DNA from: Shouchella hunanensis
Lineage (GTDB): Bacteria > Bacillota > Bacilli > Bacillales > Bacillaceae_D
Assembly (NCBI RefSeq): GCF_028735875.1
Contig: NZ_CP117834.1
Location: forward strand, 3,646,001 to 3,710,000
DNA: 64,000 bases
Direction of reading: 5' to 3'
Shown here: positions 5,233 to 59,383 of the stretch, one piece after another
Numbering within the stretch: position 1 is the first letter of the stretch
Layout of the letters: the number at the start of each line of letters is the position of its first letter
Program-made: the position numbers and the translations under genes
The notes under the pieces: model-generated
What the model saw: the letters and a program-made list of their open reading frames with translations, nothing else
Told to the model about the DNA's origin: nothing
The model's database searches: none

Positions 5233-6717
5233 TTAAGGCAATTGGCTACTTCCCATTAAGAAACGATCACATTCACGGGCTGCTTCTCTTCCTTCGTGAA
5301 TAGCCCAAACCACTAAACTTTGACCGCGACGATTATCTCCAGCAGCAAATACGTGGGCTTGATTCGTTTGATAACGCCCATATTCAGCGTCAATGGTTTG
5401 ACGATTTGTTTGCTTAATATTCATTTGTTCAAGTAGTTTCCGCTCCGGTCCAGTGAACCCAACTGCAAGTAAAACAAGATCTGCTTCCCATAATTTCGTT
5501 GAATCTGAAACAGGATGACGAACCTTTTTTCCATCTTCTAAAGTAGTATTCACTTCAATTGTTTCAAGACCGACCAACTCGCCTTTTTCATTACCAACGA
5601 ATTTCGCGGTTTGCAGTTTATAGCTGCGCGGATCACGACCGTAAACCGCTTTAGCCTCTTTATGGGCATCTTCTTCACTATAGACATTTGGAAATAGCGG
5701 CCATGGATTTTGAATGTGACGAATCGTTTGCTTTTGTTCATTAATATCAAACTGAGTAACCGAACGTGCTCCATGACGAATAGATGTCGTTATGCAATCC
5801 GCTCCCGTATCACCACCACCGATTACAATGACATCCTTACCTTTTGCAGAGATATAATCATCGTCTTGATGATTTGAATTTAACAAACTTTTCGTATTCG
5901 CTGTTAAAAAGTCCATAGCATAATGAATGCCTGTTAACTCTCGGCCCTCTTGATCAACATCTCTTGGCATCGTTGCGCCTGTTGCCAAGATAATAGCGTC
6001 GAATTCATGATCCAATTCCTCCGCTGTTACATCAACACCGACCTCCACATTGGTTTGAAATACAATTCCTTCTTCTTTCAAAAGTGTAATACGGCGATCA
6101 ACAATTTTATAAGCGAGCTTCACATCCGGGATACCGTAGGTTAATAAACCACCTGGACGATCCTCTCGTTCAAATACAGTTACGAGATGCCCTGCTTTAT
6201 TAAGCTGAGCCGCACTCGCTAATCCAGCAGGTCCTGAACCAATAACGGCAACTTTTTTACCTGTTCGCTCCTTAGGAGGATTGGGTTTAATCCAACCTTC
6301 TTTAAAGCCTTTTTCTACAATGCTGTACTCAATCGATTTAATTGTAACTGGCTCATCACTGATGGCTACTGTGCAAGAACCCTCACATGGTGCAGGGCAA
6401 ACTCTGCCTGTGAATTCTGGGAAGTTGTTCGTCTTATGAAGACGGTCGAGGGCTTCCTTCCACTTCCCACGGTACACGAGCTCATTCCACTCTGGAATGA
6501 GGTTGTAAACTGGACAGCCAATTTCGTTTGACCCCGGCATGGTTGTACCTGCTTGACAGAACGGGATGCCGCAATCCATACAGCGAGCCCCTTGACGCTT
6601 TAACTGTTGCTCTGGCATAACAATTTGAAATTCCTTCCAGTTCTTTACACGAGCCATTGGATCCTTTTTTCTAGGCGCCTCTCGCTTGTAATCCATAAAC
6701 CCCGTTGGCTTTCCCAT
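5233..6717 (-). CDS. gltD: Glutamate synthase (NADPH), small subunit
   Basis: This 494-residue flavoprotein passes electrons from NADPH to the large subunit. The N-terminal part has the Fe-S cysteine clusters CMDCGIPFC (46-54) and CPAPCEGSC (107-115), then an FAD site GSGPAG (161-166) and a second dinucleotide site GGGDTG near 300. Length is normal for the family; it is called gltB in B. subtilis nomenclature. It follows the large-subunit gene after 67 nt, and that gap contains a weak hairpin (GAGAGTG/CACTCTT) that could tune the ratio of subunits. Confidence 0.95.
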   Translation of the reverse strand: MGKPTGFMDYKREAPRKKDPMARVKNWKEFQIVMPEQQLKRQGARCMDCGIPFCQAGTTMPGSNEIGCPVYNLIPEWNELVYRGKWKEALDRLHKTNNFPEFTGRVCPAPCEGSCTVAISDEPVTIKSIEYSIVEKGFKEGWIKPNPPKERTGKKVAVIGSGPAGLASAAQLNKAGHLVTVFEREDRPGGLLTYGIPDVKLAYKIVDRRITLLKEEGIVFQTNVEVGVDVTAEELDHEFDAIILATGATMPRDVDQEGRELTGIHYAMDFLTANTKSLLNSNHQDDDYISAKGKDVIVIGGGDTGADCITTSIRHGARSVTQFDINEQKQTIRHIQNPWPLFPNVYSEEDAHKEAKAVYGRDPRSYKLQTAKFVGNEKGELVGLETIEVNTTLEDGKKVRHPVSDSTKLWEADLVLLAVGFTGPERKLLEQMNIKQTNRQTIDAEYGRYQTNQAHVFAAGDNRRGQSLVVWAIHEGREAARECDRFLMGSSQLP

Positions 6718-56758: not shown

Positions 56759-58012
56759 TCATTCCTCGTGTTGGAGCTGGTCAATAAGCTCGATTAAGTC
56801 TGTTCTTGTCGGATCAACGTATAGCGCTTGTCTAAAGAACACAGCTGCTTTTTGACGTTTTCCTTCTTCTAAGAGAAAGTAGCCATATTCAATTAAAAAG
56901 TCAGCATCTTCCTTAAAAAACGGTTCCGCTTCTTCATATAATAGACGGGCTTCTTCATACGATTCCAATTGTGCTTTAGCAAAAGCGTGGTACCACGTTA
57001 GTACAGGATCATGTTCACCATGCTCTTGTACATATTCAATAAGCTCTTGTAGCTCTTCTGCTCTTTCTTCTTCCTTCAATAATGCAGCAAGTGCTTGTAT
57101 GCTAGTCATATTTGAAGGGTTTAACGCCAAAGCTTGTCGAAAGTATTGCTCAGCACCGACGAGGTCATTCATTTTTGTCAACACTTGACCAGCCATCATT
57201 GGGAGTTGGTCATTAAATTCATCCATTCGAATACCATCTTTCAACGTCTCAAATGCCTCATCTAAACGATTTTCAGCCTCATATGCTTTTGCAAGTGGCA
57301 CATAAACACTTGTAAAATCCGCATCTAAACTTTTTACCGCACCGAGCTGTTCAATAACAACTGGATAATCACCTTGTTGATAAGCAGTAAACCCAAAGCT
57401 GAATAACTGATCAGGCGTCATTTTATTTGTTTCCTGTTGATGATACAAATGCAAGGCCTCTTCAAATTGACCATTTCCGCTATATGCTTCTGCCAATGAT
57501 AATCCAACGTTCACTTCACCTAATTGAGCATGAAGAGATTGTTTTAAATACGGAATCGCCTTATTGTATGCCCCTTGATTTAAATAGAATTCACCTAGCG
57601 CATAAATAAGGATCATTTCTTCAGGGTCTTTTTGCAAGGCGGCAAGTAACTTCTGTTCGGCAACTTCATCAAGAGCTTGCAATTGATACAAATCGGCAAG
57701 CAATAGTTGTGCTTGTACGAAGCTGTCATCTTTTACGCCAACTTCTAATAGTAATTCAATGGCTGCATCCTCTTGATCTTCGTCAATCATCATTTCCGCT
57801 GAAAGAATGGCTAAAGAGCCTTCATCTGGATAAAGTGACCGAAGTTCTTCCACAATGGTTCGTGCTTCACGAATGTGCCCAAGTTCGTAATAGAGCTCAG
57901 CCACTTCAAACCGAATTTGGTGGTTGTCTGATAGAGCATGTTCAGCTAAATACGCTAAAGCAGCTTCAATGTTTCCAGCCTCTATTTTAGAAAAAACATG
58001 TTCTTTCAACAT
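56759..58012 (-). CDS. ypiA: TPR-repeat protein YpiA
   Basis: This 417-residue soluble protein is built of about ten tetratricopeptide repeats (for example ALGEFYLNQGAYNKAIPYLK and LSLAEAYSGNGQFEEALHLY) and is strongly acidic. It matches B. subtilis YpiA in size and place. AAAGGAG lies 10 nt before the ATG at 58012. Function unknown. Confidence 0.87.
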   Translation of the reverse strand: MLKEHVFSKIEAGNIEAALAYLAEHALSDNHQIRFEVAELYYELGHIREARTIVEELRSLYPDEGSLAILSAEMMIDEDQEDAAIELLLEVGVKDDSFVQAQLLLADLYQLQALDEVAEQKLLAALQKDPEEMILIYALGEFYLNQGAYNKAIPYLKQSLHAQLGEVNVGLSLAEAYSGNGQFEEALHLYHQQETNKMTPDQLFSFGFTAYQQGDYPVVIEQLGAVKSLDADFTSVYVPLAKAYEAENRLDEAFETLKDGIRMDEFNDQLPMMAGQVLTKMNDLVGAEQYFRQALALNPSNMTSIQALAALLKEEERAEELQELIEYVQEHGEHDPVLTWYHAFAKAQLESYEEARLLYEEAEPFFKEDADFLIEYGYFLLEEGKRQKAAVFFRQALYVDPTRTDLIELIDQLQHEE

Positions 58013-58054
58013 AAATGTTCTTGCTCCTTTTCGTAACAAACGATATATGTTTAT

Positions 58055-58126: not shown

Positions 58127-58155
58127 TTGACTTTGTAAGCGTTTTCTTTTATTAT
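58127..58155 (+). promoter_or_regulatory. Promoter with overlapping CcpA (cre) site
   Basis: TTGACT (58127-58132) and TATTAT (58150-58155) with a 17-nt spacer on the plus strand. The spacer contains TTGTAAGCGTTTTCTT (58133-58148), which matches the catabolite-responsive element consensus (WTGNNARCGNWWWCAW) at all but one position. No protein-coding gene follows on this strand. Confidence 0.6.
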
Positions 58156-58161
58156 CTAATT

Positions 58162-58254
58162 AGCGTATGGTTTCTCTCCACTCCTATCCATACATTTTAG
58201 CTTTTATAGCTAAACCCCCTTGAAAACGTAAGCGTTTTCAAGGGGGTTTTTTTT
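58162..58254 (+). ncRNA. Candidate small RNA, about 93 nt
   Basis: A promoter with a cre-like site points into a stretch that ends 93 nt later in a very strong terminator. The RNA could form a first hairpin GTATGG/CCATAC (58165-58192), a small TTTAGC/GCTAAA stem (58196-58214) and the terminator stem. An 18-codon frame within it has no ribosome site, so a non-coding RNA is more likely. It lies between ypiA and tyrA, where B. subtilis has aroE, and both flanking genes are on the other strand. CcpA control and the function are inference. Confidence 0.5.
58212..58254 (+). terminator. Strong terminator, plus strand
   Basis: AAACCCCCTTGAAAACG (58212-58228) pairs perfectly with CGTTTTCAAGGGGGTTT (58233-58249), loop TAAG, ending in eight T (58247-58254). 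The minus-strand side has only three T, so it serves plus-strand transcription. Confidence 0.85.
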
Positions 58255-58291
58255 ATACAAGCGCCTGACCTACTTGACCAGACGCTTGTCA

Positions 58292-59383
58292 CTATTGTTC
58301 GTAAATTTGATAATGCCGTTCCATTAGGACCGTCCGAGCGTGAGTTCGATCTTCTTCCGAGCGGAAGCTCAAACGTAAAACACCCATAATATCTTCTCTT
58401 GCCTCGAGAATTCGAATGTTGGTCAGATGAATTTTATTTTCTGCAAGGACATAGGTAACATCCGAAACGACTCCGAGATGATCCGGAACATCCACATATA
58501 AGTCGTAAAATGCCGGAATTGCCCCGCGAGACTTCTGCGGTAAACCTTCACGAACCTGACGGGCTCCTGCAAAGAAATGATAGATGCTCTCATGATCCTC
58601 GTTTTCAATTAATTCACGTATGCCATCCATATCTTGCTGCCACTCATTCATTAATCGAATCATTTCTTCTTTATTATGTACTAAAATATCACGCCACATA
58701 ATAGGGCTTGCTGAGGCAATTCTTGTAATGTCTTTAAAACCTCCAGCAGCAAGTGCAGTCACTTGATCATCTGTTGCTTGCATCTTTTCAAGTTGATGTA
58801 CGAGTCCAGCTGCTACAATGTGAGGAAAGTGGCTGACAACACCAACAAGTCGATCGTGTCGCTTTGCATCTAGTTCAATAAATCGCGCCTTCGTCAATTT
58901 TAGAATATTTTTCAATGAAATCAATTCATCCCGAGACGTCTCTGCGGTTGGTGTTAAAAGATAGAACGCATTTTCAAATAAATGTTCTTGTGCTGCCGTA
59001 ACACCAGACTTATGCGAGCCAGCCATCGGATGTCCACCAATAAAGCACACAGATGGTAACAGTCGCTCTGCTTGCTCGACGATTGTTCGTTTCGTCGAGC
59101 CTACATCTGTTAAGATGACGCCTTTTTTCAGTGCCATCGTACTTAGCTGTTCCATAATCTTTATTGTCACACCAACTGGCGTGGCAATAATAATGACGTC
59201 CGCACGTTCAGCACCATCCTGTAAACGTGTCACACGCTCATCAATAACCCCTAATTGATGTGCCATATTCGTTTCGTCCTCTGAAATATCATAGCCTAGC
59301 CGGTGAAAGGTTGAATCATTTTTCAAAGCAAGGGACAATGAGCCCCCAATTAGGCCCATACCAATGATAAAGATGTTCGTCAT
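58292..59383 (-). CDS. tyrA: Prephenate dehydrogenase
   Basis: This 363-residue enzyme makes 4-hydroxyphenylpyruvate for tyrosine. The NAD site is GMGLIGGSL (8-16), the catalytic region shows GGHPMAGSHKSG near 125, and a C-terminal ACT domain (about 293-363, DVPDHLGVVSDVTYVL) should sense tyrosine. It is 26 nt behind hisC at the end of the trp-his-tyr cluster. aroE, which follows tyrA in B. subtilis, is missing here. Confidence 0.95.
   Translation of the reverse strand: MTNIFIIGMGLIGGSLSLALKNDSTFHRLGYDISEDETNMAHQLGVIDERVTRLQDGAERADVIIIATPVGVTIKIMEQLSTMALKKGVILTDVGSTKRTIVEQAERLLPSVCFIGGHPMAGSHKSGVTAAQEHLFENAFYLLTPTAETSRDELISLKNILKLTKARFIELDAKRHDRLVGVVSHFPHIVAAGLVHQLEKMQATDDQVTALAAGGFKDITRIASASPIMWRDILVHNKEEMIRLMNEWQQDMDGIRELIENEDHESIYHFFAGARQVREGLPQKSRGAIPAFYDLYVDVPDHLGVVSDVTYVLAENKIHLTNIRILEAREDIMGVLRLSFRSEEDRTHARTVLMERHYQIYEQ

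Follow-up and report, generated by a model that had tools for sequence, protein, structure and literature searches.

What does the gap between tyrA and the neighbouring TPR-protein gene of Shouchella hunanensis encode? It lies in the window, by which we mean the whole 64,000-nt stretch analysed (NZ_CP117834.1, positions 3,646,001 to 3,710,000). The original prediction placed here a candidate CcpA-controlled small RNA (sRNA) in the place of aroE, left behind by loss of that gene or inserted.

Architecture and conservation of the predicted small-RNA gene

The predicted elements are all present: TTGACT-N17-TATTAT on the plus strand, a cre-like site with one mismatch in its spacer, and a 17-bp stem with eight T (Table 1). 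The 57 nt originally given as the distance to the stem is correct when counted from the end of the −10 box; counted from the likely start, which the −10 box places at about 58162, it is about 50 nt. As had been noted, the cre-like word GTAAGCGTTTTC is found again in the terminator stem; there it lies within the palindrome TGAAAACGTAAGCGTTTTCA. The divergent gene we take to be ypiA, the name used in the original prediction.

Table 1. Features of the locus, in window coordinates
Feature	Position	Strand	Remarks
Promoter TTGACT - 17 nt - TATTAT	58127..58155	+	−35 58127-58132, −10 58150-58155; same layout in relatives
cre-like CcpA site TGTAAGCGTTTTCT	58134..58147	+	Inside promoter spacer; one mismatch to consensus
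Predicted small RNA, ~93 nt	58162..58254	+	Start placed from the −10 box
Core hairpin GUAUGG-loop-CCAUAC	58165..58193	+	Identical in 30/30 family loci
17-nt seed loop UUUCUCUCCACUCCUAU	58171..58187	+	Single-stranded in predicted fold; complementary to start sites
Second small hairpin UUAGCU-5 nt-AGCUAA	58197..58213	+	From predicted fold
Intrinsic terminator with T-run	58212..58254	+	17-pair stem 58212-58249, eight T 58247-58254
cre-like palindrome TGAAAACGTAAGCGTTTTCA	58221..58240	+	Within terminator stem
tyrA (prephenate dehydrogenase)	58292..59383	−	Convergent neighbour; NF005107, 529.8 bits
ypiA (TPR protein; name presumed)	56759..58039	−	Divergent neighbour; matches TPR families

The promoter match alone is unremarkable, as the 1.8 kb searched held 8 promoter-like sites against 4.8 ± 2.0 in shuffles. 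The stretch 58127-58260 folded at −38.9 kcal/mol (z −6.5, with 0 of 200 shuffles as good), largely through the contribution of the terminator. The 93-nt RNA was predicted to form three hairpins, namely the core hairpin with its 17-nt loop, the UUAGCU/AGCUAA hairpin and the terminator. Such single motifs are not rare alone; the decisive support for an sRNA gene comes from comparison with relatives. On that basis 58127-58254 (+) reads as a small-RNA gene made up of a promoter, an RNA of about 93 nt and an intrinsic terminator.

BLAST matches were obtained in 44 of the 60 genomes searched, including all 36 from the family of the window, and a covariance model placed the sRNA in 133 of 398 genomes of the class (54 of 146 genera). 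A scan of named genomes found an exact 24-mer of the sRNA in at least 118 named stretches; the genera among the matches listed are Shouchella, Halalkalibacter, Alkalihalobacterium, Alteribacillus, Marinococcus, Geomicrobium, Pseudalkalibacillus, Caldalkalibacillus, Paenibacillus, Cohnella, Brevibacillus, Aneurinibacillus, Thermoactinomyces, Melghirimyces and others. An identical 29-mer, GTATGGTTTCTCTCCACTCCTATCCATAC, occurs in all 30 family loci. Judged by eye, it is preceded in each by a −35 box of the TTGAC type with its −10 and followed by a stem resembling a terminator. Relatives keeping a terminator alone, which the original prediction had named as evidence against a gene, were thus not seen: promoter, body and terminator stand together in 30/30.

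The loop UUUCUCUCCACUCCUAU is almost unchanged among diverging surroundings. Across 57 chosen sequences 11 of its 17 columns are invariant and the other six are at 90% or above; part of this conservation is due to selection, because the core served to find the loci. Over the same 57, the second hairpin and the terminator have next to nothing in common. In the distant set, where loops with up to three changes were accepted, 12 of 20 were unchanged over the 21 bases compared. In an alignment of 27 family sequences, 6 of the 18 consensus pairs change on both sides, one in the second hairpin (U-A to C-G in 5 of the 27) and five in the terminator. The first helix is invariant in these sequences and so says nothing for or against pairing.

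We also considered a small peptide gene, as a frame MVSLHSYP begins at the core ATG in most sequences inspected. No ribosome site was seen, the frame ends very differently among 19 translated loci, its start is TTG or GTG in L485, L489 and L493, and the conservation is at the nucleotide level. This reading is therefore very improbable, in agreement with the earlier statement that no ribosome site or credible frame is present.

Some genomes may carry more than one copy. Paenibacillus luteus (L082) has a decayed-looking second core near 2746, 255 nt after the first, and genomes G261 and G297 each gave two covariance-model matches.

Neighbourhood and predicted CcpA sites

We examined 168 loci (30 family, 118 listed named and 20 distant) and found tyrA/aroE beside the sRNA in 153 and none nearby in 15; in 131 of the 168 the 3' end of tyrA/aroE lies within 400 nt. 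All 30 family loci are convergent with tyrA/aroE. Among the 118 listed named loci, 89 are on the same strand, 18 are convergent and 11 are without such a neighbour, and the corresponding distant loci comprise 16 on the same strand and 4 without. The comparison indicates that the sRNA unit has kept its place at the end of the trp-hisC-tyrA-aroE genes and that its orientation was reversed.

This setting bears on the proposed relation to aroE. The gene is gone, with tyrA next to the sRNA, in 8 of the 30 family loci including that of the window, and the other 22 still have aroE directly adjoining the sRNA, which contradicts the idea that the sRNA stands in the place of aroE. Because relatives keep aroE beside it, the sRNA predates the disappearance of that gene from the lineage of the window; it adjoins tyrA/aroE in many other families as well, so that neither origin through this loss nor insertion could be upheld. 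A remnant or replacement of aroE was ruled out on the same ground. Promoter-like matches are common by chance, and another reading would see here a mere spacer, remaining after aroE was lost and flanked fortuitously by a promoter and a terminator; the conservation of the sRNA beside intact aroE refutes this, and we give it next to no probability.

A search for aroE elsewhere, recommended with the original prediction, succeeded as far as the protein family is concerned: the window genome has a PF00275 (EPSP-synthase family) gene of 456 aa (G000, C1:947174-948397), far from the aromatic operon, which suggests that another PF00275 copy replaced aroE in this genome. Second PF00275-like copies, of 458 aa, occur in G004, G008, G010 and G011, and these genomes also keep the copy beside the sRNA.

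Two further features were seen around the sRNA. In several genera, though not in the window, a gene of about 320 aa (L086_U1, starting MVMYLLDKVIKIDEERNETRSYL) lies between the sRNA and ypiA; genes of this type were seen in L019-L022, L026 and other family loci. Alteribacillus iranensis (L077) has two Bacillaceae-1 RNAs (RF01690) nearby, at 5601-5668 and 6171-6238.

The consensus of cre, the operator of CcpA, is TGWAANCGNTNWCA. We searched for sites with at most one mismatch to this consensus in the promoter or in the 75 nt after the core, which are mostly terminator, with shuffles as control; the three groups of loci (29 distinct family, 117 distinct listed named and 20 distant) overlap in part. 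At least one cre was found in 29/29 family, 97/117 named and 8/20 distant loci, far above shuffles, and the remaining 12 of the 20 distant loci had none within one mismatch. Promoter sites were present in 14/29 family loci (0.05 expected), 81/117 named (0.90 expected) and 4/20 distant (0.05 expected), and downstream sites in 28/29 (0.15 expected), 22/117 (0.35 expected) and 4/20 (0.25 expected), respectively. In the window's family the cre is usually inside the terminator. By eye, Shouchella has both sites and Halalkalibacter mostly the terminator site; Paenibacillus has TGAAAACGTATACA in the spacer, and Brevibacillus has TTGACAAGCGCTTACA at the −35 and TGAATGCGCTTACA in the terminator. That the position of cre moves and the predicted control is kept argues for function. 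The CcpA control originally proposed thus gained support as a prediction, with cre-like sites at the gene in most lineages.

The frequent company of tyrA/aroE (153/168 loci) and the cre in the terminator of most family loci could also mean that the element acts mainly in cis at the end of the aromatic operon, as a terminator, a CcpA road-block or a source of transcription interference with tyrA/aroE. We consider this improbable, since the unit occurs in both orientations (convergent in 30/30 family and 18/118 listed named loci, on the same strand in 89/118 and in 16/20 distant loci), 15 of the 168 loci have no tyrA/aroE nearby, and it is the loop that is conserved, not the stem or terminator.

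Three observations concern the spacer and terminator. In L003, a close relative, the terminator loop is GCTTAC, compared with GTAAGC in the window (58221-58240); the palindromic arms on either side are the same, so that the centre of the hairpin seems to have been inverted. The 2.6-Mb genome of Shouchella lonarensis (L065/G007) has lost the terminator cre and has an unfit aroA site (−8.8), with the core intact. In L036, L038, L072 and L492 (Caldalkalibacillus-like and one other lineage) the sequence between −35 and −10 is (G)GAGTGGAGAG or AGTGGAGAG, complementary to the sRNA's own loop.

Predicted pairing with start sites of amino-acid genes

We searched for the 17-mer complement of the loop with at most two mismatches and read 40 of the places found outside the sRNA gene. 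Many were ribosome sites of good quality belonging to unrelated genes, and the majority did not come up again. One strong match lay on the start of aroA (DAHP synthase/chorismate mutase) and led to the target tests, of which the 30-genome test includes the discovery genome. At the aroA start, genomes with the sRNA have GGGAGTGGAGA or a similar sequence, and many genomes without it have AAAGGATGA or a similar one.

Duplex energies of the loop against the start region (−30 to +6) were then compared. In the first set, the mean for aroA was −21.1 in 30 genomes with the sRNA and −12.9 in 28 without (P=1.4e-8), two of 30 genomes without it (L300, L308) having been dropped because no start was found. 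A fresh set from distant families gave −18.1 in 27 genomes with and −11.7 in 6 without (P=0.009), after three of nine without (G063, G065, G074) had been dropped for the same reason; sites at −18.5 or below were found in 11/27 and 1/6, respectively. With all data reduced to family means, 24 families with the sRNA averaged −19.4 and 26 without −12.9 kcal/mol (P=1.4e-5); no family is in both groups. The use of family means lessens the effect of shared ancestry and does not remove it. Overall, 37 of 57 genomes with the sRNA reach −18.5, compared with 3 of 34 without, and among 1007 start sites from the window and listed named loci the background is 6.5%. The combined test omits seven paralogous loci of genomes with the sRNA (L504, L505, L507, L508, L511, L548 and L549) and also L509; the omitted loci are without the chorismate-mutase part, and the copy having that part was used instead. 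Absence of the sRNA from the 30 genomes was called by BLAST, covariance model and a further search (best E 0.03), and none of 10 loci inspected had a core at six substitutions or fewer; for the six genomes of the fresh set it was called by the covariance model with strict filters alone.

The association has exceptions on both sides. Six families (f37, f41, f51, f62, f76 and f77) have the sRNA and a weak aroA site, with means from −10.8 to −15.7, as does genome G007 at −8.8. Strong sites in genomes without the sRNA were found in G047 (−22.5), G046 (−20.4) and G072 (−18.7). Where the loop itself has changed (G066, G123, G209, G305), the aroA site does not clearly follow.

Could the CcpA-controlled RNA be real, with a loop whose main partner is a protein, the ribosome or a different RNA, and with start-site matches that merely reflect its likeness to the 16S tail? 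The loop does resemble that tail, and some families keep it without an aroA site. Shuffled loops, too, give stronger pairing where the sRNA is present (mean difference −2.4), as any C/U-rich loop pairs with Shine-Dalgarno sequences. The observed difference is −6.6, though, and 0 of 200 shuffled loops reach either the observed aroA difference or the observed mean. Moreover, genomes with and without the sRNA show no difference in the pairing of these aroA sites to the 16S tail (P=0.95), and the same genes recur in a gene-blind search. We therefore regard binding to another partner as unlikely and favour pairing with start sites.

The gene-blind search used the pattern GGAGTGGAGA-N0-9-ATG in 36 genomes with the sRNA, with the reversed pattern as control, and gave 149 places compared with 30; some excess is expected since the pattern is itself a Shine-Dalgarno sequence. 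We read 110 of the 149 places, and 94 had a frame. Recurrent among these were serC (8), hom (homoserine dehydrogenase, 8), a sorbitol-6-P dehydrogenase-like gene (5), folD (3) and a HAD hydrolase (3). Genes met once each include serA, EPSP synthase, isocitrate lyase and, in the window genome, pheA. By coordinates, six places are at aroA (G012, G015, G020, G022, G025 and G082).

The start sites of serC averaged −19.0 in 14 genomes with the sRNA and −11.1 in 10 without (P=0.0009), the gene being missing in G132 and four genomes without the sRNA and its start not found in G049. Those of hom averaged −20.5 in 15 with and −14.9 in 10 without (P=0.007), with no start found in G000 (the window genome), G036, G037, G042 and G052. 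By predicted pairing, serC and hom thus behave like aroA, more weakly. In the window genome the duplex energies are −22.6 for aroA and −26.5 for pheA, and co-folding of the whole sRNA with the 5' regions gains 15.0 and 13.7 kcal/mol, respectively; serC is not a target there (−10.7), and no typical hom was found. The modelled pairing supports aroA and pheA as targets in this genome.

Proposed mechanism and relation to known RNAs

Taken together, the most probable explanation, in which we have good though not full confidence, is a trans-acting sRNA repressed by CcpA that, in the absence of glucose, blocks ribosome binding at genes of aromatic, serine and threonine/methionine synthesis. Gene architecture, conservation, cre enrichment, the aromatic-gene neighbourhood and the co-occurrence of the sRNA with pairing sites are all read from sequence; expression, CcpA binding, repression as the direction, the physiology and independence of Hfq are what we infer.

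With glucose, CcpA bound at the promoter cre, the terminator-stem cre or both would keep the sRNA low. Without it, CcpA would let go and the RNA of about 93 nt would be made. The open loop of 17 nt, which resembles the tail of 16S rRNA, would pair over the Shine-Dalgarno sequence and start codon of aroA, which encodes the PEP-using entry enzyme of the aromatic pathway, and would also cover pheA in the window genome and, in relatives, serC, hom and in places folD, serA and aroE. The block of translation would lower synthesis in the aromatic, serine and threonine/methionine branches and thereby spare central carbon; these pathways draw on PEP, erythrose-4-phosphate, 3-phosphoglycerate and aspartate. 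The terminator cre may simply be a second operator, or it may add a road-block. The predicted target sites are patchy in distant families, several of which lack the aroA site.

Of the features that define a catabolite-controlled, start-site-blocking trans sRNA, its own promoter and an intrinsic terminator are recognisable, and a conserved seed complementary to the start sites of distant genes is present, with the weak aroA sites as exceptions. GcvB of E. coli, which uses Hfq, has similar targets; it belongs to another phylum and has another seed and another control, and no homology is claimed.

Membership of an Rfam family was rejected, with no family over its cut-off on the sRNA in the loci searched. 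None of five weak Rfam 15 matches in the sRNA stretch of the window reaches its gathering cut-off; the best, rli38 of Listeria (RF01470), scores 31.9 bits against a cut-off of 49, agrees mostly in the terminator and aligns the sRNA core to nothing conserved. Among 16 named loci, the only Rfam matches are the two Bacillaceae-1 RNAs of L077, neither on the core, and six distant loci gave no match up to E 1.

The nearest parallel in kind is RsaI/RsaOG of S. aureus (RF01775). PMC9266662 and PMC8383071 describe it as under CcpA repression that is lifted when glucose is missing, and as pairing with Shine-Dalgarno regions through an unpaired CU-rich segment. RsaI also has G-rich sponge regions, and its targets are glcU_2, fn3K and icaR. 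PMC8216469 calls it conserved in Staphylococcus and not in Bacilli. The sRNA of the window would resemble it in control, cre-like sites being strongly enriched at its gene, and its predicted unpaired loop is C/U-rich and fits Shine-Dalgarno sequences. Unlike RsaI, the predicted fold of the sRNA has no single-stranded G-rich stretch, its G-run sitting in the terminator stem. RsaOG gave no match up to E 1 in the sRNA stretch of the window or the six distant loci, nor any in five genomes of the order of G066, where the control genomes gave none either.

In B. subtilis, PMC8216469 and PMC8464778 describe RosA as a G-rich sponge for RoxS and FsrA (225/193/128/92 nt), and the former also as a stand-alone sRNA repressed by CcpA. 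CcpA repression, predicted for the sRNA of the window, would be common to both, whereas the latter is C/U-rich in its loop. Of RoxS/RsaE, FsrA, SR1 and RnaC, several have C-rich seeds and inhibit translation according to PMC8464778; their descriptions set them apart by size, targets and regulators. The same 2021 review counts, for B. subtilis, five trans sRNAs whose targets are known, and a 2015 abstract states that, 6S aside, RsaE is the one trans sRNA known from both S. aureus and B. subtilis. We found no paper describing the present sRNA in the open-licence PMC literature, which says little on subscription journals and supplements, and a sequence search of open-licence literature matched only an unrelated paper.

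By this record the sRNA appears to be a new family of regulatory RNA, unusually wide and well kept, presumably expressed and presumably repressing. A bolder reading, which we offer tentatively and with some doubt, makes it an unrecognised ancient RNA family of the Bacilli with a near-frozen 17-nt loop in at least two dozen families, placed by the aromatic operon. CcpA would through it set amino-acid synthesis (aromatic, serine, threonine/methionine and one-carbon) post-transcriptionally, in a Gram-positive counterpart of GcvB tied to carbon, not glycine. In the window's family the terminator would also serve as an operator, through which CcpA could act from both ends, for example by road-blocking RNA polymerase inside the terminator.

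If confirmed, the sRNA, which occurs in a third of the sampled class genomes (133/398), would rank with the most widely conserved trans sRNAs among Gram-positive bacteria. The terminator cre, a putative operator and a terminator in one, offers a clean test case. E. coli (GcvB) and Bacilli would have arrived independently at control by a single sRNA over DAHP synthase, serC and pheA, and CcpA would be tied to the supply of amino acids in genera of industrial use such as Paenibacillus, Brevibacillus and Shouchella.
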